Origin: Candidatus Hodarchaeota archaeon
GTDB lineage: Archaea > Asgardarchaeota > Heimdallarchaeia > Hodarchaeales > YT1-057
DNA length: 9,943 nt
Direction: 5' to 3'
Assembly (NCBI GenBank): GCA_016839955.1
Contig: JAEOTI010000675.1
Span: forward strand, 1 to 9,943
A program made the translations under genes and the position numbers. This document shows positions 2,698 to 9,943 of this stretch, piece after piece. The first letter of the stretch is position 1. Every line of letters starts with the position of its first letter. Under the pieces are notes generated by a model. It searched no databases. It worked only from the letters and a program-made list of their open reading frames with translations, and was not told the DNA's origin.

Positions 2698-2943
2698 CTA
2701 ATCATTCTTTGGATAAAAGGAACGGGGAGCTAAAACAAAGTCGTCTTTATTTGTTTCTAAAACAATATCAGATTGTTTCTGCTTTTTTTTTCGTAGTTTT
2801 TTCTTTTTGGATGTTAAAGAAGTGTGCTTGCCAACCAAAGTTGGTTTTTGACATTCAGGACAATAGAAAACTCCAACAGAAGGACCTTCCTGGGGTATAA
2901 ACCCACATTCATTACAACTAAAAGGTTTAATCATAATACTCAT
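2698..2943 (-). CDS. Small zinc-ribbon protein with Lys-rich tail
   Basis: An 81-residue protein with an N-terminal zinc ribbon (Cys10/Cys13 and Cys28/Cys31; the second knuckle reads YCPECQKP) followed by a very basic stretch around residues 45-57, mostly Lys and Arg, and a polar tail. Such a ribbon plus basic tail suggests nucleic-acid or ribosome binding, but no named family can be assigned. The start is the ATG at 2943; a second in-frame ATG lies three codons later and could be used instead. No Shine-Dalgarno is visible, so a leaderless transcript is plausible. It is head to head, 27 bp apart, with another small zinc-ribbon gene of the same design (2971-3207), and its end converges on the unrecognised gene to its left. 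A plus-strand frame over the same bases (2655-2900) is judged an antisense shadow. Confidence 0.7.
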   Translation of the reverse strand: MSIMIKPFSCNECGFIPQEGPSVGVFYCPECQKPTLVGKHTSLTSKKKKLRKKKQKQSDIVLETNKDDFVLAPRSFYPKND

Positions 2944-2970: not shown

Positions 2971-3207
2971 ATGAAATCCTATACTTGTAAATCCTGTGGT
3001 TACACATCCCAAATTACTCCTAAAGGAGGAAGTTGGGTTTGTCCCAAGTGTGGAAAGAAGGTTCTTTTTAGAAAGAAAAGGGACAAGGAAATTTCAAAGG
3101 TTAAAAAGGATCCAGAGATTGAAGAACTTCTAAAACCATTAGATAGGACCAAAATGCCCCCTCCCCGAGAAAAATTATTCCTCTTCTACAAGAATAAGAA
3201 GAAATAA
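2971..3207 (+). CDS. Small zinc-ribbon protein, divergent twin of the neighbour
   Basis: A 78-residue protein starting at ATG 2971. The ribbon uses Cys6/Cys9 (YTCKSCGY) and Cys24/Cys27 (VCPKCGKK), which is a typical rubredoxin-like/zinc-ribbon spacing. The rest is Lys/Arg-rich, with an acidic patch near residue 50 and a basic C-terminus. Architecture and size match the divergent gene at 2698-2943, and the two may be old duplicates. The function is unknown; RNA, DNA or ribosome binding is a guess from charge. No convincing Shine-Dalgarno precedes the ATG. The gene ends 10 bp before the converging end of the E1 gene, so it is probably transcribed alone. Confidence 0.7.
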   Translation: MKSYTCKSCGYTSQITPKGGSWVCPKCGKKVLFRKKRDKEISKVKKDPEIEELLKPLDRTKMPPPREKLFLFYKNKKK

Positions 3208-3217
3208 ACCCCTCTTA

Positions 3218-4423
3218 TTATTTAAAACGAAATTTCACTAACTTTTCAATTTCAGAATCCAAATCTGAAATTATTAGACAGTCCCCATCAAATATTTGGT
3301 CACTTACTGCCTTATTATTATCAATTACTTGAGTTCCCCGAAAAAGAACTATTGAGGTGTCTTTTTTAAAATCCAGAGTGCGTTTAATCTCTTCTACTAT
3401 ATCTGAAATAACATCAGTTTTCTTAATAGTCATTTCGTAGAAATTGTGATTTGTTTTTGAACATGTCAAACAATTTGGGTCGATTTCACGTTCATAATTG
3501 ATGGTAGTTCCTGTTAAAGCTGAATATATTGTCCAATGGGGAATTTGAAAGCGATCATGGGAAAGTAAATTATTCAGTTCTCTTTGAAATCGTTGATTAC
3601 CTTCTTTACTTTTAAATAAATACAGACTTTTGATTATTTCTGAACACATTAGACCTGCTATGACTGCATTCACATTAATTACACTAGGTGTGTGTGAAAG
3701 TAATAGTTCTTTGATTTCGTACCGAGATAGAGGATCAAATCCGTGCTCGGATGAAATTTCTTTAACTTGAAGATATAAATGTTCGATATCTTCATCGGAT
3801 TCCGAAGGCATTCGATTGAAGGATTGATTAAACCTGTATAAGGCAATCCAGCCACAATGCTCTCGTCTTCGTGGTTTTCCAACAAGTGTACATGGTATGT
3901 CCAAAACTAGTGTTTCATCCGGTGGAAGGGGATTAAAACATCCTAGACAGGCAGTTTGTTCTGGAAGATACACTGTCATTTGTGCAAAGAACCCTTCGCT
4001 CGCACCATCAATTAGAGGTTTCTTATTTATCACAGCCATTTCGTTGAGATAAACACGGGCTAGAAAGTTATCAAAACAACCTACAATTATATCTGTCTCC
4101 TCAAATATCCTCATAGGTGTCTTTTGAATTCTATCTGTATAAAATGAAATATTTACATCTGGATTAAACCTTTTAATGGCATGTGCAGCGATTTCAGCTT
4201 TAGCTTTGCCAATATGATTTTCGGTGAACAATAATTGCCGATTTAAGTTCGAGAATTCTATTGAATCATTGTCAACTAGGATTAAATTTCCAAAACCGAT
4301 GAGAGCCAGGTTTTTAGCAACTTCACAACCGATTCCCCCAACGCCAGCTATAAGACAAGTAGAACTATTGATGATATCCTGATCCCATATAGATAACCGC
4401 TCTTGTCTTTCATATTTGCTCAT
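3218..4423 (-). CDS. E1-like ubiquitin-activating enzyme with C-terminal ubiquitin-fold domain
   Basis: It would adenylate the C-terminal glycine of the ubiquitin-like protein at 8201-8500 and hold it as a thioester for the E2. Start: ATG at 4423, with GGGAG at 4435-4439 upstream; a TTG at 4444 in frame is less likely. This gives 401 residues, beginning close to the YxRQERL motif usual in this family. Numbering from 4423: ATP loop GVGGIG (27-32), ribose-binding Asp51, the NLNRQ segment (59-63, with Arg62) and Lys73. Zinc cysteines are Cys159/162 and Cys318/321. The segment IPCTLVGKPRRREHC matches, from memory, the catalytic region of eukaryotic UBA2/UBA3, making Cys178 the likely thioester Cys. 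Residues about 328-390 look like a beta-grasp ubiquitin-fold domain (contains LFRGTQVID), as in the E2-docking end of E1s. MoeB/ThiF sulfur-carrier enzymes lack this set. Transcribed away from the OadG-like gene. Confidence 0.93.
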   Translation of the reverse strand: MSKYERQERLSIWDQDIINSSTCLIAGVGGIGCEVAKNLALIGFGNLILVDNDSIEFSNLNRQLLFTENHIGKAKAEIAAHAIKRFNPDVNISFYTDRIQKTPMRIFEETDIIVGCFDNFLARVYLNEMAVINKKPLIDGASEGFFAQMTVYLPEQTACLGCFNPLPPDETLVLDIPCTLVGKPRRREHCGWIALYRFNQSFNRMPSESDEDIEHLYLQVKEISSEHGFDPLSRYEIKELLLSHTPSVINVNAVIAGLMCSEIIKSLYLFKSKEGNQRFQRELNNLLSHDRFQIPHWTIYSALTGTTINYEREIDPNCLTCSKTNHNFYEMTIKKTDVISDIVEEIKRTLDFKKDTSIVLFRGTQVIDNNKAVSDQIFDGDCLIISDLDSEIEKLVKFRFK

Positions 4424-4474
4424 TAGGATCCGTTCTCCCAGCAAATTTCAAAAGAAAAAGATGAGAGAGACTTT

Positions 4475-4849
4475 ATGGAGTTTCCCTTTTTGAGCGATTC
4501 GGTAGCAGCTTTGATTTTGGGAATCAAAATTGCAGCTCTGGCTATGACTATGACATTTTTCGCTATGGCTCTGATTATTCTGTCAACAAAGCTATTAATG
4601 AGGCTTGGTCAAAAACCTGTTCTTGAATCCCAAGCTACTGCGAGAGCTATGGAGATAACTCCCAAAGTACGAGTAAAACCCTTACCTCCAGGGCATTTAG
4701 CCCTTATAAGTGCCGCAATTGCTAGTTTTTATCAAGAGAGAGAAAAGAAACTGGATACACATCTTCCCACATATTCAACGAAACATCGTATAATTAACCC
4801 TTGGAAATACAGCTCAAAAGTAAGGATGATGCGTGGACGTTATGGTTGA
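4475..4849 (+). CDS. Sodium-pumping decarboxylase membrane-anchor subunit (OadG/MmdD-like)
   Basis: A 124-residue protein with one N-terminal membrane helix (about residues 9-37) and a basic cytoplasmic tail. The C-terminal half has the family pattern: a short ISAAIASFY helix (about 78-85) and a terminal NPWKYSSK...RGR segment, like the ends of OadG/MmdD chains as I recall them. In oxaloacetate or methylmalonyl-CoA decarboxylases this small subunit ties the carboxyltransferase to the membrane beta subunit. A biotin-carrier gene overlaps its 3' end and OadB follows, which strongly supports the call. The ATG at 4475 gives the normal short N-terminus. The 51-bp gap to the divergent E1 gene must hold or adjoin both promoters. 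Whether the substrate is oxaloacetate or methylmalonyl-CoA cannot be told without the alpha subunit. Confidence 0.82.
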   Translation: MEFPFLSDSVAALILGIKIAALAMTMTFFAMALIILSTKLLMRLGQKPVLESQATARAMEITPKVRVKPLPPGHLALISAAIASFYQEREKKLDTHLPTYSTKHRIINPWKYSSKVRMMRGRYG

Positions 4850-5315
4850 TAGAAAACGCCGTGATCTGATTTTAACAATAGACGGGAAAGAACATAATGT
4901 CTCAGTTCAAGAAAAAGATCCTGGAGATGATACCTTACTCGAAATTTCGATTAACGGTGAACAATATGAAGTGGGAGTAAAGGCTGGATCTGAGGATCAT
5001 AAAGTCATTGATGAGATAACCGCCTTAGAAAGAGACCCTGAGTCCAGCCCAACAGCAAAAATTGTGATAGAGGACTCAGAGAAATCCAAATGGAGAGCTG
5101 AGGAAAGTGGGATAGTTCCTGCACCTATTCCAGGACGTATTTTGGAAGCTAAGGTAAAAGTTGGTGATAAGGTGAAAGTAGGCGATGTAATAGTAATCTT
5201 GGAAGCTATGAAAATGCATAATGAAGTGGCATCGCCCGTCACTGGAGTTGTAAGAAGTATCGTTGAAGCAGGAACCGCAGTTAACTTTGGAGACGATATT
5301 GCTGTAATTGAGTAG
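4842..5315 (+). CDS. Biotin carboxyl carrier protein of a sodium-pumping decarboxylase
   Basis: A 157-residue biotin carrier. The C-terminal 70 residues are a biotinyl/lipoyl domain with the attachment motif EAMKM; Lys124 is the biotinylated residue. The domain is preceded by a PAPIPGRI stretch (93-100), the usual entry to such domains. The N-terminal 60 residues form a small beta-rich region typical of decarboxylase gamma/BCCP chains. It shuttles CO2 from the carboxyltransferase to the beta subunit that pumps Na+. The start is ambiguous: ATG at 4842 (overlap of 8 bp with OadG) is preferred, but an in-frame GTG at 4833 would add three residues. The overlap indicates translational coupling. 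In many bacteria this domain is fused to the alpha subunit; here it is a separate protein. Confidence 0.92.
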   Translation: MVDRKRRDLILTIDGKEHNVSVQEKDPGDDTLLEISINGEQYEVGVKAGSEDHKVIDEITALERDPESSPTAKIVIEDSEKSKWRAEESGIVPAPIPGRILEAKVKVGDKVKVGDVIVILEAMKMHNEVASPVTGVVRSIVEAGTAVNFGDDIAVIE

Positions 5316-5320
5316 GAATT

Positions 5321-5326
5321 GGAGGG
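5321..5326 (+). promoter_or_regulatory. Strong Shine-Dalgarno-like GGAGGG without a nearby start
   Basis: GGAGGG lies 6 bp after the biotin-carrier stop. It is the best ribosome-binding match in this part of the window, yet the first usable OadB start (GTG at 5360) is 33 bp further on and no ATG, GTG or TTG falls at the normal 5-12 bp distance. It may be coincidence or mark a non-standard start. Confidence 0.35.
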
Positions 5327-5359
5327 TCAAGATCGCCTAACAATAGCTTCGATAGTGCT

Positions 5360-6529
5360 GTGGATTTTATTGAAGAGTGGTATGAATCTACAGGATTTTA
5401 TGGTTTCATAGATGATCCTAGATATTTTATTATGGTCATTATTGGATTGATTCTAATCTATCTAGCTATTGAAAAAGAATTCGAACCACTCCTCTTACTT
5501 CCAATTGGTTTTGGTTGTATTTTGGTAAATATCCCATTTTCTGGGATGATGGATGAACCTTCTAATGGAGAATCTGGTGGAGTACTATACTTTCTATATG
5601 AAGCAGGGATCATTACTGAATTATTTCCGATCTTAATTTTCATTGGTATCGGTGCAATGACTGACTTTACTCCATTACTGAAACGTCCTAGTGTTTTAAT
5701 CTTCGGAGCAGCTGCACAGTTTGGAATATTCTTCACTCTGATTGTAGCATTACAATTACAGGAACTTGATTTGATAGAAGGTGGTCTTGAGGTTGCTGCA
5801 AGCATTGCAATTATAGGTGCGGCAGATGGCCCCTCAACAATATTTTTAACTTCTAGATTCGCCCCAGATAAGCTCGGACCCATTTCAGTGTGTGCATATT
5901 CCTACATGGCGATGGTCCCTTTAATACAGCCTCCAATAATCCGGTTAATGACCACGAGAAATGAACGAAAAACTCCAATGCCCTATGATGAGGGTATCGA
6001 ACCTAGTAGGTCCACTAAAATACTTTTTCCAATTATTGTGACACTAATAACATGTACACTCGCTCCCATGGCAACCCCATTAATGGGTTCTTTGATGATG
6101 GGTAATCTCTTCCGAGAAAGTGGAGTTGTTGAACGACTAGCCCAGTCTTCAGAACAGGAATTGACAAATATTGTAACAATACTCCTTGGTGTTACTATCG
6201 GTGCGACAATGCAAGCAAAACAGTTCATCACGATGGAAACTCTAGTAATTTTTATTCTAGGGTTAGTAGCTTTTACAGCAGCGACTGCAACGGGAGTTTT
6301 TTTCGGTAAAGTGGCCTATATTGGATCTAGAGGTAAAATTAATCCAATGATAGGTGCTTGTGGTATTTCAGCGTTTCCTATGAGTGCTAGGGTTATTCAT
6401 AAAATGGGTTTAGAAGAAGATCCGCAGAATTTCCTATTAGGACATACTATGGCCGTTAATACTGGCGGACAAATAGGATCAGTTGTTGCGACAGGCATGT
6501 TTCTTCTTCTTATCCCGTTATTTTTGTAG
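5360..6529 (+). CDS. Sodium-translocating decarboxylase beta subunit (OadB/MmdB-like)
   Basis: A 389-residue polytopic membrane protein, normal length for the family. Diagnostic blocks are present: GIGAMTDF (about 96-103), AAQFGIF (about 118-124), the Na+-binding segment GAADGPS (Asp156, matching the essential Asp203 of Klebsiella OadB), AYSYMAMVPLIQPPI (about 179-193), GNLFRESGVVERL (about 248-260), INPMIGACGISAFPM (about 327-341) and EEDPQNFLL (about 352-360). The segment after that reads NTGGQIGS where bacterial proteins usually have NVAGVIGS. The subunit decarboxylates carboxybiotin and uses the energy to export Na+. GTG at 5360 is the first conventional start in the open frame; a longer N-terminus through a non-standard codon cannot be excluded. 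It probably forms one operon with the two preceding genes. The alpha (carboxyltransferase) gene is absent from this window. Confidence 0.95.
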   Translation: MDFIEEWYESTGFYGFIDDPRYFIMVIIGLILIYLAIEKEFEPLLLLPIGFGCILVNIPFSGMMDEPSNGESGGVLYFLYEAGIITELFPILIFIGIGAMTDFTPLLKRPSVLIFGAAAQFGIFFTLIVALQLQELDLIEGGLEVAASIAIIGAADGPSTIFLTSRFAPDKLGPISVCAYSYMAMVPLIQPPIIRLMTTRNERKTPMPYDEGIEPSRSTKILFPIIVTLITCTLAPMATPLMGSLMMGNLFRESGVVERLAQSSEQELTNIVTILLGVTIGATMQAKQFITMETLVIFILGLVAFTAATATGVFFGKVAYIGSRGKINPMIGACGISAFPMSARVIHKMGLEEDPQNFLLGHTMAVNTGGQIGSVVATGMFLLLIPLFL

Positions 6530-6592
6530 GAAAATCTTGGTAAAAACTGAATTTTCTTAAGCGATACCTAGTCAGTTTCATCATCTCTTCTG

Positions 6593-6922
6593 GTGAATAT
6601 CCTGACTCAACCGAAAATCACTCTTTACGGAGCTAATTGGTGTTCTGATTGTCGTCGAGCAATAAAGTATTTTGGGGAACAAGGAATCCATTATGATTTG
6701 AGGGACATTGAAGAAGAGACTCCTGCGGGAAGAGAAGCTTATAATTTTGTCTTAGAAGCAAATGGGAAGGTGTATGGAAAATCCAAAAGAAAAATTCCAG
6801 TTATAGAATTTGAAAAGAATGGAAAAAAGGATCTTCTCATCGAACCAACAAACGTGGAACTTGCGAAACGACTCGGATTAGCAATTGAAACAGCGGGTGA
6901 AGGAGTTTCTGCATCAATATAG
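6593..6922 (+). CDS. Glutaredoxin-like thiol-disulfide protein
   Basis: A 109-residue thioredoxin-fold protein. It opens with a beta strand (KITLYGANWC) leading to the redox motif Cys17-Ser-Asp-Cys20, followed by RRAIKYF as in NrdH/mycoredoxin-type glutaredoxins. A KIPVIEF segment holds the expected cis-Pro69, although the usual Thr before Val-Pro is replaced here. The insertion around residues 51-68 (NGKVYGKSKRK) is longer than in bacterial glutaredoxins. It would reduce disulfides or mixed disulfides in the cytoplasm. The start is GTG at 6593; there is no good Shine-Dalgarno upstream, so a leaderless mRNA is plausible. It follows OadB by 63 bp on the same strand and converges on the E2 gene. 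A role in protecting the catalytic cysteines of the neighbouring E1/E2 enzymes is conceivable but is only inferred from location. Confidence 0.85.
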   Translation: MNILTQPKITLYGANWCSDCRRAIKYFGEQGIHYDLRDIEEETPAGREAYNFVLEANGKVYGKSKRKIPVIEFEKNGKKDLLIEPTNVELAKRLGLAIETAGEGVSASI

Positions 6923-6936
6923 CTCCGTGAAGGCCT

Positions 6937-6942
6937 AAAAAA
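6937..6942 (-). terminator. T-run downstream of the E2 gene
   Basis: Six T residues on the minus strand lie about 20 bp after the E2 stop codon, in the 40-bp convergent gap with the glutaredoxin gene. Oligo-T tracts are the usual archaeal termination signal, so this may end the JAMM-E2 transcript. Evidence is the tract and its position only. Confidence 0.3.
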
Positions 6943-6962
6943 TAGACTAAACGGGTAAAGAT

Positions 6963-7511
6963 TTATTGAGGAGTAAATGCATGCTTTTTTGTCCATTCCT
7001 TTGCTGTTTGAAAGTATAAATCAAAATTTTTAAGCATTTGTTCTCCTGCTTCTTTGTTAAAGGGATCTCTTGGATCTACTAGGTATTCAGGGAACTCTCC
7101 TTCAGTAGGAAAGACATCTAGCATCATTTCAAGGTGTTCAACGACAGATGGAAGAGTAATGGTCTCCTTCCAACCTCCTGGTTTTCCTGCATTATTCCAA
7201 TTAATCAAGCTTAAACATACATTAGAACCCCATTTCCATCGCATATCCCCAATAGCGAGGTTTGCATGCCATATTGGTGTCCTAAAATTAATAATTGGTG
7301 GTTTAAAGGGATATTCAGACGGTAGGTCAATTGTTACTTTCCAAGATCCCCCTTCATATGGTGTTCCTTTTTTACCAGAGATGATTAACTCATATTTTGA
7401 TAAATCTCTGTCAATTAATTTCCAGGAAACGCTACTACGACCTGGTGGATAGGATTTTAACATTGCTTTGAATTCTGATCGTAGTCGTGTAGAATGAAGG
7501 TCTTGAGTCAT
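6963..7511 (-). CDS. E2-like ubiquitin-conjugating enzyme
   Basis: A 182-residue UBC-fold protein; it would accept the modifier from the E1 and pass it on to a lysine. Typical UBC landmarks run in order: basic N-terminal helix, GTPYEGGSWKVTIDLP (49-64), YPFKPPIINF (67-76), WHAN (81-84), SNVCLSLINW with catalytic Cys99, then the Trp114-containing segment and a long C-terminal helix region ending about 178. Two departures stand out: the usual HPN triad reads HAN (82-84), and seven extra residues (AIGDMRWKWGS region) sit between that triad and the Cys (15 positions against the usual 8). A longer loop also follows the helix near 133-150. Start: ATG at 7511, with AGGGAGA (7522-7528) at a normal distance. 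It is 28 bp behind the JAMM gene, so probably the same operon. UFC1-type E2s lack these motifs, so this is the canonical ubiquitin type. Confidence 0.92.
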   Translation of the reverse strand: MTQDLHSTRLRSEFKAMLKSYPPGRSSVSWKLIDRDLSKYELIISGKKGTPYEGGSWKVTIDLPSEYPFKPPIINFRTPIWHANLAIGDMRWKWGSNVCLSLINWNNAGKPGGWKETITLPSVVEHLEMMLDVFPTEGEFPEYLVDPRDPFNKEAGEQMLKNFDLYFQTAKEWTKKHAFTPQ

Positions 7512-7539
7512 AACTTGAGATTCTCCCTAATATTTAACC

Positions 7540-8046
7540 TTAATTTTCTGTTATAGACCACTCTAAACTCTCATACTTGCTGTTAAACCAATTTTCTGGA
7601 TTTATAACCCGAAAAATAGCCAAAAATTTTGTATTTGGCTCTTTTTCTAAGTAAGGATCAAGTACAATAGCGATTGCTCTTGGATACCTTAGTTGGAAAG
7701 CCAGACAATGAGTTTCAATATCTGTGCTACTAAGAAATACTCCCCAAGAAGGATGTGAATGATACCATCCAATAATAAATTCACCTTTCTCGTCATCAAG
7801 ATCTATCCATTCATAAAATGAAAATTGCCAGTCCTGAAGCTCTACAAAAGAAGAGCTACCTTCCGAAAGAGGGATTATTCTCTCAACTTTGAGATTTTTA
7901 CTACTTATTTCACATCCTACCAATAGTCCCAGAACTTCTTTTCGTTCGTCTGAGAACGCTGAGGCATGGGCTATCATATCTGCAACAGCGGTGTTTTGAA
8001 GAACTACATGGGCCCTATTATCTATCTTTGTGGATTCTAATGACAT
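7540..8046 (-). CDS. Rpn11-like JAMM/MPN+ deubiquitinase
   Basis: A 168-residue zinc metalloprotease of the JAMM family, made of the MPN+ core alone (eukaryotic Rpn11 is much longer). The catalytic set is complete: Glu37 in EVLGLLVG, and GWYHSHPSWGVFLSSTD (93-109) giving His96, His98, Ser106 and Asp109. That block is almost identical to the Rpn11 sequence as I remember it, including the GWYHSHP start. It would cut the isopeptide bond after the modifier's Gly-Gly, and could also remove the one extra residue from the precursor encoded divergently at 8201. Start: ATG at 8046, with GGGG (8055-8058) upstream and a good TATA-like box at 8089-8100. It leads an operon with the E2. Sulfur-carrier (SAMP) systems also use JAMM enzymes, but they lack an E2. 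Confidence 0.94.
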   Translation of the reverse strand: MSLESTKIDNRAHVVLQNTAVADMIAHASAFSDERKEVLGLLVGCEISSKNLKVERIIPLSEGSSSFVELQDWQFSFYEWIDLDDEKGEFIIGWYHSHPSWGVFLSSTDIETHCLAFQLRYPRAIAIVLDPYLEKEPNTKFLAIFRVINPENWFNSKYESLEWSITEN

Positions 8047-8088
8047 TTTAAATACCCCTGTTCTTCAGGAAAGGTAATATCCGTGCAA

Positions 8089-8100
8089 TTTATTTTATAT
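8089..8100 (-). promoter_or_regulatory. TATA-like promoter element for the JAMM-E2 operon
   Basis: On the minus strand this reads ATATAAAATAAA, a good archaeal TATA match. It lies 43-54 bp upstream of the JAMM ATG, which would put the transcription start near 8065-8070 with a short leader carrying the GGGG ribosome-binding site. Called from sequence and spacing only. Confidence 0.5.
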
Positions 8101-8151
8101 GAGGACTTTTCTAAAAACTAATTTTTCACAGGAAGGATTAGTTTGGAAATT

Positions 8152-8160
8152 CTTAAAACC
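8152..8160 (+). promoter_or_regulatory. Weak TATA-like element for the ubiquitin-like gene
   Basis: CTTAAAACC is AT-rich and would place a start near 8180-8185, just before a possible ribosome-binding site (AAGAAGG, 8185-8191) ahead of the ATG at 8201. The match is poor and other placements are possible, including use of the 8089-8100 box in both directions. Confidence 0.25.
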
Positions 8161-8200
8161 TCTTTCTGAGGGGAATTAATACTAAAGAAGGTTTCTAGTT

Positions 8201-8500
8201 ATGACCTATGGCGATAATTCTTATGATGGTGATTTGGACGCTCCAACAATCAATTTACGATTTAAAGACCCACAATTACCTCCAGGCCGAAATACAAAAG
8301 CTGAAGTAGTTCGTTTAGATTGGACAATCCGGCAATTAATTGCAGCAGTTCGGGATATGTTCTCAATTCCGATAAATTTGCCCATTGCCTTACTCTATAA
8401 AGGAAGAAGACTTAATCCCGAAACTATGTTACAAGATTATACTCCTACTGAAAATGATTTATTTATGATTGTACCTGATCAAATAAAGGGTGGAACGTAA
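8201..8500 (+). CDS. Ubiquitin-like modifier precursor ending Gly-Gly-Thr
   Basis: A 99-residue protein with a beta-grasp (ubiquitin-like) pattern. A polar, acidic extension (residues 1-15) and a first strand (16-21) lead into a Pro-rich loop, a strand with EVVRLD, the helix TIRQLIAAVRDMFSI (42-56), then ALLYKGRRLNPETML (63-77), which matches the central strand and turn of ubiquitin (IFAGKQLEDGRTL), and LFMIVPDQ near the end. It closes with Lys-Gly-Gly-Thr, so Gly98 would become the active C-terminus once Thr99 is trimmed. Eukaryotic and Caldiarchaeum modifiers are likewise made as precursors. The start at ATG 8201 has AAGAAGG 9 bp upstream. Neighbours supply the matching E1, E2, JAMM protease and a candidate E3. 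Extra N-terminal residues relative to ubiquitin (76 aa) are the main oddity. No counterpart of the acceptor lysine pattern of ubiquitin can be read from the sequence. Confidence 0.9.
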   Translation: MTYGDNSYDGDLDAPTINLRFKDPQLPPGRNTKAEVVRLDWTIRQLIAAVRDMFSIPINLPIALLYKGRRLNPETMLQDYTPTENDLFMIVPDQIKGGT

Positions 8501-8515
8501 ATAAAACAAGATTTT

Positions 8516-9943
8516 TCAGTTCGATGCATTCTCAATTGTCTCTAAATTACCCTTACATTCAATACAAAAGAATGCGTCTACATCTTTGAGATCCTTAGTA
8601 CATGATTTACAAACCGCTGCTTGGCAAACGGCACATTTTGAAACAGGTTGTTTCGATTCTTGACAGATTGAACAGCGGGCTTCAATTGTCTCTTCATATC
8701 GGACTAATTTTCCATTGTCTATATCAATTCGAGCAGGTATAGCATTTGTTAAGATCATTTCAACAATTTCTTCTATTAAAGAATCTTCTGATTGCCCTGT
8801 GACAGTAGCAATCGCTGATAAAGGTATTTTTTCTCCGGTGCTTGTATCAAATATTTCTTTTACTTTTAATGAACTATTAGTCTGAGAATAGCTAGCTGGA
8901 AGTCTCCAACCTCTTTCTAAGGGGGAAAAACCACACAGGCGACATTTTTCGCTTGTTTGAAGCCCTTCGACCTCAACATAAGTCAGTCCACACGATGGAC
9001 ACATTCTTGGGAATTCAAGGATAAATTGACCAATGTTGTCACAAAAGGGACAGGATTTACTTTCTCGAGCTTCATAACAAGAAGCAAATACGACTCTACG
9101 ACAATTCATACATTCATAATATCGCAGAGGTGATTCTTCAAACATCAGTTGATCATATACAGTCCCATCAAGTTGACAGAAGATTTGTATTGCTTCTACT
9201 CCTATTACTTCTAGTCCTCGGTTTACCAATCGTAAACCCTGACTGTTTGCCATTATTTGAAGTAAATAAAAAGCAATTGTTGAAGTAATATCAAAAATAG
9301 AAGCAAAGGCGTTAATATCTATTGCTGATTTTAATCGATTCTTTATTTGATCTGTAGAAGGACTAAATATTCCTTTATTATCTATTTGTCCAATTTGTAT
9401 TATTGCTTGCAATTTTTGAAGAATATCTATTAGAACTTCGACAGAAATATGCAATTTTCTCGCTAGAGTTTCAGGGTTAAATGATTCAAGCACTAAAAGA
9501 AATTTTACAATTCGTTCTAGAATGCGAGGTAGAGAAAGAACCTGTTTGTTATCTGCTGAAAGTAGCGTTTCAAGGATTGCTTCTTGATGTAAATGATTAA
9601 GTAAATCCAATACTTGTGAGGATGACAATTTAAAGATATTTTGTACAAGTTGAAGCGATACACCTTTGTTACCCTTCTCAATTAATAAATTTCTTATAAA
9701 AGCTGAATAAACTTCGATAGCGCGAGGACTACGCAATATCAAGTCCCTGGAGATATTTGATGTAGTGTAAATCATATGATTCCGATCAATAAATCCTGAA
9801 ATATTCTCTTCTTCCGATAATAACATTAAAATAGATTCAATTCGATCTATTGACCAAGCAAGCTCTTGTATTACCTCCCACGCCAAGATTTTATCCGACC
9901 CTTTAATTTTGTTTAAGAGTTGTTGTTTAGCATTTTGAAAACT
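8516..9943 (-). CDS. Candidate E3: UFL1-like winged helices, zinc ribbons, PCI-like domain and RING-like finger (5' partial)
   Basis: The frame is open to the right edge; the only start candidate inside is a TTG at 9886, so the N-terminus probably lies outside. Numbering from 9886 (456 residues): residues 1-190 are helical with repeated winged-helix-like units; about 121-187 contains IDNKGIFS...RLKSAI, resembling the UFL1 (UFM1 E3 ligase) N-terminal region as I recall it. Two cysteine clusters follow (259/262 with 279/282, and 296/299 with 315/318), typical zinc ribbons. Residues 341-397 read like a PCI-type winged helix (IPLSAIATVTG...). The C-terminus has eight cysteines, 405/408/418/421/426/429/441/444, spaced as in a C4C4 RING finger such as CNOT4. 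A protein joining a RING-like finger to UFL1-like helices fits a ubiquitin ligase. Its position beside the modifier gene, convergent with a 15-bp gap, supports this. A zinc-binding regulator of another kind remains possible. Confidence 0.72.
   Translation of the reverse strand, partial: SFQNAKQQLLNKIKGSDKILAWEVIQELAWSIDRIESILMLLSEEENISGFIDRNHMIYTTSNISRDLILRSPRAIEVYSAFIRNLLIEKGNKGVSLQLVQNIFKLSSSQVLDLLNHLHQEAILETLLSADNKQVLSLPRILERIVKFLLVLESFNPETLARKLHISVEVLIDILQKLQAIIQIGQIDNKGIFSPSTDQIKNRLKSAIDINAFASIFDITSTIAFYLLQIMANSQGLRLVNRGLEVIGVEAIQIFCQLDGTVYDQLMFEESPLRYYECMNCRRVVFASCYEARESKSCPFCDNIGQFILEFPRMCPSCGLTYVEVEGLQTSEKCRLCGFSPLERGWRLPASYSQTNSSLKVKEIFDTSTGEKIPLSAIATVTGQSEDSLIEEIVEMILTNAIPARIDIDNGKLVRYEETIEARCSICQESKQPVSKCAVCQAAVCKSCTKDLKDVDAFFCIECKGNLETIENASN

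Follow-up and report, generated by a model that had tools for sequence, protein, structure and literature searches.

A probable second ubiquitin-like conjugation and removal cassette in a Hodarchaeota archaeon, with a winged-helix, PCI and zinc protein as its E3 candidate

Does an archaeal locus encoding an E1, an E2, a JAMM protease and a ubiquitin-like modifier amount to a dedicated eukaryote-like tagging system, and could the large Cys-rich protein beside them be its E3? We asked this of positions 3,218 to 9,943 of a 9,943-nucleotide stretch of DNA from Candidatus Hodarchaeota archaeon (GenBank assembly GCA_016839955.1, contig JAEOTI010000675.1, forward strand), the whole of which we call the window. 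The initial annotation, made from the letters of this stretch, had described a eukaryote-like set for conjugation and removal in one locus, a description with which profiles, active-site motifs and gene neighbourhoods agree. We consider it likely that the locus encodes a dedicated system for attaching a ubiquitin-like modifier and taking it off again, of a kind that, in related genomes, operates alongside the standard Asgard ubiquitin cassette.

Working from a list of open reading frames (ORFs) of at least 60 amino acids (aa), ten of whose proteins were scanned with Pfam, we found that the predicted E1, E2, JAMM protease and modifier each match a conjugation-type family over a Pfam cut-off and that the catalytic features first read from the sequence are in place. 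The E1-like activating enzyme (3218..4444, minus strand; 408 aa from a TTG start, with Met at residue 8) matches ThiF at 1.9e-59, carries the ATP loop GVGGIG and two CxxC pairs, and possesses a PCTLVGKP motif that aligns with GCTIRNTP of UBA2, the aligned Cys of which we take to be catalytic. Searching the PDB, we found its nearest solved chains to be the E1s of SUMO, ubiquitin and NEDD8 (from 3e-36), with ThiF and MoeB behind at about 9e-23. Its C-terminal tail may be a ubiquitin-fold domain; a C-terminal UBL on archaeal E1-like proteins is mentioned in the legend of Fig. 1 of PMC5654768. The E2 conjugating enzyme (6963..7511, minus strand; 182 aa) matches UQ_con at 3e-23, with UBE2K as nearest solved chain (3.6e-17), and keeps an intact VC motif (VCLSL, the Cys lying within SNVCLSL) while HPN is replaced by HAN. 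The JAMM (MPN+) protease (7540..8046, minus strand; 168 aa) matches JAB at 4.3e-14, has a complete metal-site motif (HSHP-x6-S-x2-D) and is nearest to the Rpn11 of Caldiarchaeum (6fjv, 3.5e-15). The E2 and JAMM genes share a strand and stand 28 bp apart, the conjugation set as a whole is spread over both strands, and the E1 is, as had been pointed out, split from the other components by sodium-pump genes (ORFs up to 6529) and a glutaredoxin gene (6593-6922).

The modifier (Ubl; 8201..8500, plus strand; 99 aa) bears a KDPQLPP signature and passes the Pfam Rad60-SLD cut-off (2.4e-6), staying under that of Pfam ubiquitin (18.9 vs 25.4 bits), and its PDB matches are weak and ubiquitin-like, the best being a designed ubiquitin (0.0026). 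It had been recognised as a beta-grasp protein ending in GGT, and its C-terminus indeed reads KGG followed by a single Thr, the Gly-Gly codons (8489-8494) and the one extra Thr codon together occupying 8489..8497 on the plus strand. We found five relatives over the full length, 69-74% identical and bearing names like those of the E3 candidate's relatives (see below), besides a short fragment at 77%; the five carry tails of 1-10 residues after Gly-Gly, so that the window Ubl and these relatives have the appearance of precursors (pro-forms); Caldiarchaeum ubiquitin is likewise made as a precursor and trimmed by its Rpn11 (PMC5654768). Across 14 aligned modifiers of the type we call B (see below), F-K-D-P-Q-x-P-P is common to all and Gly-Gly is invariant, forming the C-terminus itself in 11 of them, whereas those of the window, G047 and G048 extend 1-6 residues beyond it. 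B-type modifiers also came from records named Freyrarchaeum, Ranarchaeia and Odinarchaeota.

Comparing the locus with other genomes, we searched for its E2 in one genome per species (84,980 species) and recovered nine loci, every one of them from a record with Heimdallarchaeota or Hodarchaeota in its title. A common gene order emerged from nine loci (L001-L008 and L079, the last from G045), namely SPFH protein, E3 candidate, small zinc-ribbon protein, E1, modifier, 261-aa zinc protein, E2, JAMM and 269-aa membrane protein, part of which L009 also has. The window has a different order, lacks the SPFH, 261-aa zinc and membrane proteins, and contains sodium-pump and glutaredoxin genes that had no match in L001-L009 or L079 by tblastn and blastp. 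Within our Asgard set of 227 genomes, an E2-like match occurs in 159, its close form (55-69% identity) in 11 and, in two pieces, in G046, while the B modifier occurs in 13 at 47-55% identity, with two more matches that are weak (21-27%). B also appears as a compact Ubl-E1-E2-JAMM run in G078 (L074), and the B form is the only E2 of the 1.4 Mb genome G009.

The standard Asgard cassette (A; Ub-E1-E2-JAMM, cf. PMC9192718) encodes the same kinds of enzymes as the window and was found at another E2 hit in all six B-bearing genomes examined (G001, G002, G003, G004, G007, G048), each time as an E1-E2-JAMM run with a ubiquitin-like gene upstream. The window E1 is 31-35% and the window E2 29-34% identical to the A forms, and the A modifiers, unlike the window Ubl, lack the KDPQLPP motif; nor did any of the six A loci give a BLAST match to the winged-helix/PCI/zinc protein of the window. 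Trees of 35 E1s and 34 E2s, with A and B labels preset by BLAST score, both separate A from B by a branch with 100/100 support and put the window E1 and E2 with B, with the proviso that the window E1 sits on a long branch and that the program gave a warning about long branches in the E1 tree. Judged by these sequences, the window locus is a second, parallel cassette (B) and not the standard Asgard ubiquitin cluster, and from the co-residence seen in related genomes B would run insulated from A.

Several observations accompany the two cassettes. Of two A upstream genes scanned, that of L075 passes Pfam ubiquitin (3.5e-7) and that of L072 fails (20.0 vs 25.4 bits); the latter, from G001 (L072:7549-8031), ends ...STAGSSNRS without Gly-Gly, unlike the B modifier. 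G002 (L102) has A-type ubiquitin-like genes in tandem, and reading of the sequence suggests the same for G003 (L075). In the related loci the B modifier is flanked by a protein of 261-283 aa that begins with a zinc ribbon (L001:8994-9779; counterparts in L002-L009, L079, L096 and L097), two P-containing segments of which are reminiscent of RWD/UEV-like folds and make it a candidate for such a fold; with the 261-aa form, no Pfam family scored above its cut-off and no PDB chain came in under E 0.3. A CCDC47-like identity was considered for the 269-aa membrane protein that follows the JAMM and was set aside, one member reaching 0.0014, under the cut-off, and two other members and a PDB profile search giving no support.

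We then turn to the protein that would complete the cascade. The E3 candidate (8516..9943, minus strand) combines tandem winged helices, a central zinc domain, a PCI winged helix and a C-terminal eight-Cys domain, and is cut by the window edge, its 5' end with the first ~140 residues lying outside (ten full-length relatives measure 591-626 aa). Among its twelve relatives at 53-55% identity, those with a name are called Hodarchaeota, Hodarchaeales, Heimdallarchaeota and, in one case, Thorarchaeota; together with the relatives of the Ubl, these names point to a Hodarchaeales-type Asgard source. In 11 of 13 genomes its gene is the neighbour of the B E1, and in the window's lineage it is linked to the Ubl. 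The PCI part (8702..8830, minus strand; fragment residues 372-414) scores 22.3 bits against a Pfam PF01399 cut-off of 22.0 and 38.8 bits in P0001, a full-length E3 candidate. Of the 22 family members, 21 give this match at E up to 1, and only the winged-helix half of PCI is covered. The central zinc domain matches Prok-RING_4 in nine of the 22 at E up to 1 (best 4.3e-5), the window copy having lost one Cys. Large Hodarchaeal proteins with ~24-39% identity to this central region (L030/L039 on contig C194 of G045, and L027, L028, L033, L034 and L038) hint at a wider family.

The RING-like multidomain protein of the initial annotation holds up as a multidomain, Cys-rich protein whose C-terminal domain is RING-like by profile and departs from the RING consensus in its Cys spacing. 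The C-terminal domain (8555..8674, minus strand) reads Cx2C-x9-Cx2C-x4-Cx2C-x11-Cx2C, and in 21 of 22 aligned rows the eight Cys are spaced 2-9/11-2-4-2-11-2. Most of the profiles that it matches belong to RING E3 ligases (UHRF1 1.1e-4, MAT1 1.5e-3, TRIM32 8e-3), with weak C1 and PHD matches lower in the list, and RING chains were returned by Foldseek at E 0.14-0.18 with probabilities of 0.99-1.00, the matched range of the model not being displayed. The RING consensus is C-x2-C..C-x(1-3)-H/C-x(2-3)-C-x2-C..C-x2-C, whereas the third to sixth Cys here form C-x2-C-x4-C-x2-C in 21 of 22 rows, a spacing of the PHD or FYVE finger type. The model of the zinc half alone is poor (mean predicted local distance difference test, pLDDT, 59.7), and structure searches with it probe the PCI part only; that one of them listed no RING therefore does not count against a RING fold.

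From the observed parts, motifs, conserved neighbourhood and sequence resemblances, we propose the following cycle. The JAMM protease would trim the modifier behind Gly-Gly, after which the E1 would adenylate it and bind it through a thioester to the PCTLVGKP Cys; the modifier would then pass from the E1 to the Cys of the E2, both motifs being present and the chemistry predicted from them. The winged-helix/PCI/zinc protein would serve as E3, a role suggested by its sequence and setting, holding the charged E2 and the substrate, its likely E2-binding parts being the C-terminal domain that resembles the RING family and the winged-helix array that resembles UFL1. Finally, the JAMM protease would remove the modifier again.

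The resemblance to UFL1 calls for careful weighing. With the model of P0001, the top five Foldseek hits were UFL1 chains, and the best matches were to UFL1 and UFL1-DDRGK1 at 1.2e-6; the PCI winged helix aligns with DDRGK1, weakly (E 0.14). One explanation is that this is the generic look of any tandem winged-helix protein, with no bearing on descent. Several results favour such an explanation and weigh against kinship with UFL1: template-modelling (TM) scores to UFL1 chains are 0.16-0.23 by query length, with high root-mean-square deviations and poor long-range superposition; hhalign finds several alignment registers; and the E-values for UFL1 profiles are made up of several weak stretches, the best single one reaching 0.0017. 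On the UFL1 model (PF09743, cut-off 23.2 bits) the window fragment, lacking its ~140 N-terminal residues, scores 10.3, and the cut-off is passed by a single tested cluster protein, the L003 homologue (24.0), and by the G078 relative (30.9), which scores as well or better on FeoC, TrmB and other helix-turn-helix models and, as a phmmer query against the PDB, found no UFL1 chain. The passing scores of those two proteins tell on the other side, as does the finding that tandem winged-helix chains other than UFL1 come out about 2,000-fold weaker (TFIIIC 2.4e-3 and SelB 6.2e-3 vs 1.2e-6). Because the profile E-values sum weak stretches and the TM-scores are low, we rate the generic look as a real possibility, held at less than even confidence, and regard as less probable still, and rather unlikely, the reading in which the E3 candidate survives as a single-chain relative of the UFL1-DDRGK1 ligase, with a RING-family domain still in place, and works in a ubiquitin-like cassette of its own, apart from the standard one.

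Other UFL1-like proteins were evaluated alongside. PF09743 is matched in 95 of the 227 Asgard genomes, the strong hits being proteins of ~790 aa (best E 7.7e-20), which we rejected as the E3 candidate: they are a different protein, and five of their loci (L134-L137 and L139, one a 7.4 kb contig) have no adjacent ubiquitin-type E1, E2 or Ubl by blastp, L135 giving a 20-residue chance match inside the UFL1 protein itself and L136 a JAMM gene about 3.6 kb away. The Lokiarchaeal-type UFL1 of L134 (8645-11011), the one of these scanned with Pfam, has an N-terminal Cys-rich region and matches DDRGK (4.1e-15), PCI (2.8e-23) and UFL1 (1.6e-20). The PF09743 hit of G001 was also discarded, falling in a HEAT-repeat protein (L076:8060-10441) without UFL1 in a full Pfam scan, and did not recur in the PF09743 search of the 227 genomes.

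A second explanation accepts the core E1, E2, Ubl and JAMM as real and denies the winged-helix/PCI/zinc protein an E3 role, casting it instead as an adaptor that binds the modifier, as a scaffold holding the JAMM protease through PCI, or as a mere neighbour with a link to translation or membranes, and letting the E2 work alone or with another E3. PCI domains elsewhere scaffold MPN proteases, the C-terminal Cys spacing departs from the RING consensus, and in G048 the E3 candidate lies away from the B genes (modifier and E1 on another contig) with the SPFH gene still adjacent, all of which count against an E3. The SPFH/Band 7 protein itself (L001:4150-5052, Pfam 1.3e-16; L078:3993-4859) adjoins the E3 candidate even in that genome. 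Against this explanation stand the adjacency to the E1 and the linkage to the Ubl described above, and best fold and profile matches that are to E3s, UFL1 and RING; we find it doubtful and favour the candidate as the E3 of the cassette.

A sulfur-carrier or SAMP-type system (MoeB/ThiF/UbaA, MoaD/ThiS, JAMM1), an assignment that had been named as one that would overturn the conjugation reading, fared far worse. The NCBIfam scores of the E1 do lean that way and against a conjugation E1 (ThiF 125 and MoeB 120 above Ube1 at 112 bits), all three far under cut-off. This alternative is highly improbable because the locus has an E2, the E1 finds its closest PDB chains among E1s that work with an E2 and keeps the catalytic-Cys motif, and no MoeB, ThiF, UbaA or desampylase NCBIfam model reaches its cut-off on the window proteins (desampylase 30.5 bits vs 130); with the JAMM protease nearest to Rpn11, we rejected it on the NCBIfam scores and the nearest PDB chains of the E1 and JAMM. 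Weakest of all, a standard Asgard cassette merely rearranged in the window's genome would account for the same four enzyme kinds, and A co-residence is known from related genomes and not from the window's own, but the B-side placement of the E1 and E2 and the A clusters in six of six B-bearing genomes leave it next to no probability, and we rejected it.

The remaining genes are recorded for completeness. A small zinc-ribbon protein (2971..3207, plus strand; 78 aa) adjoins the E1, its relative standing between the E3 candidate and the E1 in related loci, and a second one (2698..2943, minus strand; 81 aa) matches the same relatives. Positions 4833-6529 encode a biotin carrier and the beta subunit of a sodium-pumping decarboxylase (TIGR01109, 4.4e-129), preceded by a small ORF (4475-4849) with weak gamma-subunit resemblance (E 0.29); we noticed no gene for an alpha subunit in the window. 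At 280-1671 lies a CAAX (Rce1-like) membrane protease fused to a double zinc ribbon (Pfam 2e-20), and Rfam and tRNA scans of the window gave no match. Two small genes, Arf-like GTPases by reading of their sequences, follow the cluster in tandem in L001 (12177-13301) and occur also in L003, L004, L009, L079 and L101.

Eukaryotes run several parallel ubiquitin-like pathways, and human UFL1 is an enzyme that tags ribosomes. Two co-resident E1-E2-modifier-JAMM cassettes in Hodarchaeales, proposed as the sister lineage of eukaryotes (PMC12077186), suggest that parallel pathways may predate eukaryotes. The locus supplies a concrete set of partners for a UFL1-like protein and shows an archaeon in which PCI and an Rpn11-like protease are encoded close together, and the UFL1 likeness of the final-step protein hints at a possible origin of part of the eukaryotic tagging machinery. 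Were the tentative kinship with UFL1 true, the scaffold of the eukaryotic UFM1 ligase would trace back to an archaeal E3, that of a second ubiquitin-type system, and two modifier pathways insulated from each other, one with a PCI-MPN pairing, would already have operated in the archaeal relatives of eukaryotes.

How does this cassette compare with known systems? E1-E2-ubiquitin-JAMM sets of Asgard archaea and Caldiarchaeum are published, that of Caldiarchaeum having been reconstituted (PMC5654768, PMC6043591, PMC9192718); two E2s with catalytic Cys are reported for Heimdallarchaeota AB125 (PMC9192718), a Cluster III is mentioned for Supplementary Fig. 1 of PMC5654768, and the origin of UFL1 and DDRGK1 has been placed in Asgard archaea, with a UFM1-independent function suggested (PMC10183829). 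In the accessible literature, with supplements, preprints and most subscription journals beyond reach, we came across no account that links a second Asgard cassette with a PCI protein resembling UFL1, and as far as searched a parallel cassette with such a partner is new relative to known Asgard sets. The operon of Caldiarchaeum subterraneum (Ub, E1, E2 and small RING, with Rpn11 nearby; PMC5654768, PMC6043591) shares with the window the E1, the E2, a tailed GG-modifier and an Rpn11-like JAMM; unlike it, the window has its genes on both strands, no small RING (srfp) gene that we could find, the ten proteins scanned with Pfam giving no RING match, and, as the initial annotation had said, a dissimilar E3 candidate, about 600 aa long and built from winged helices, a PCI part and zinc domains. 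With UFL1-DDRGK1, the UFM1 E3 ligase (PDB 8ohd, 8qfc, 8b9x, 8c0d), the candidate has in common a tandem winged-helix array and its top structure and profile matches, whereas it is a single chain with zinc and RING-family domains, superposes poorly overall and has a ubiquitin-type E1, E2 and JAMM as partner genes. PCI complexes are described as not known in archaea (PMC6043591). Unlike the PCI-MPN assemblies (proteasome lid, COP9 signalosome, eIF3), the window matches the winged-helix half of PCI only; like them, it encodes a PCI domain and an MPN+ protease together.

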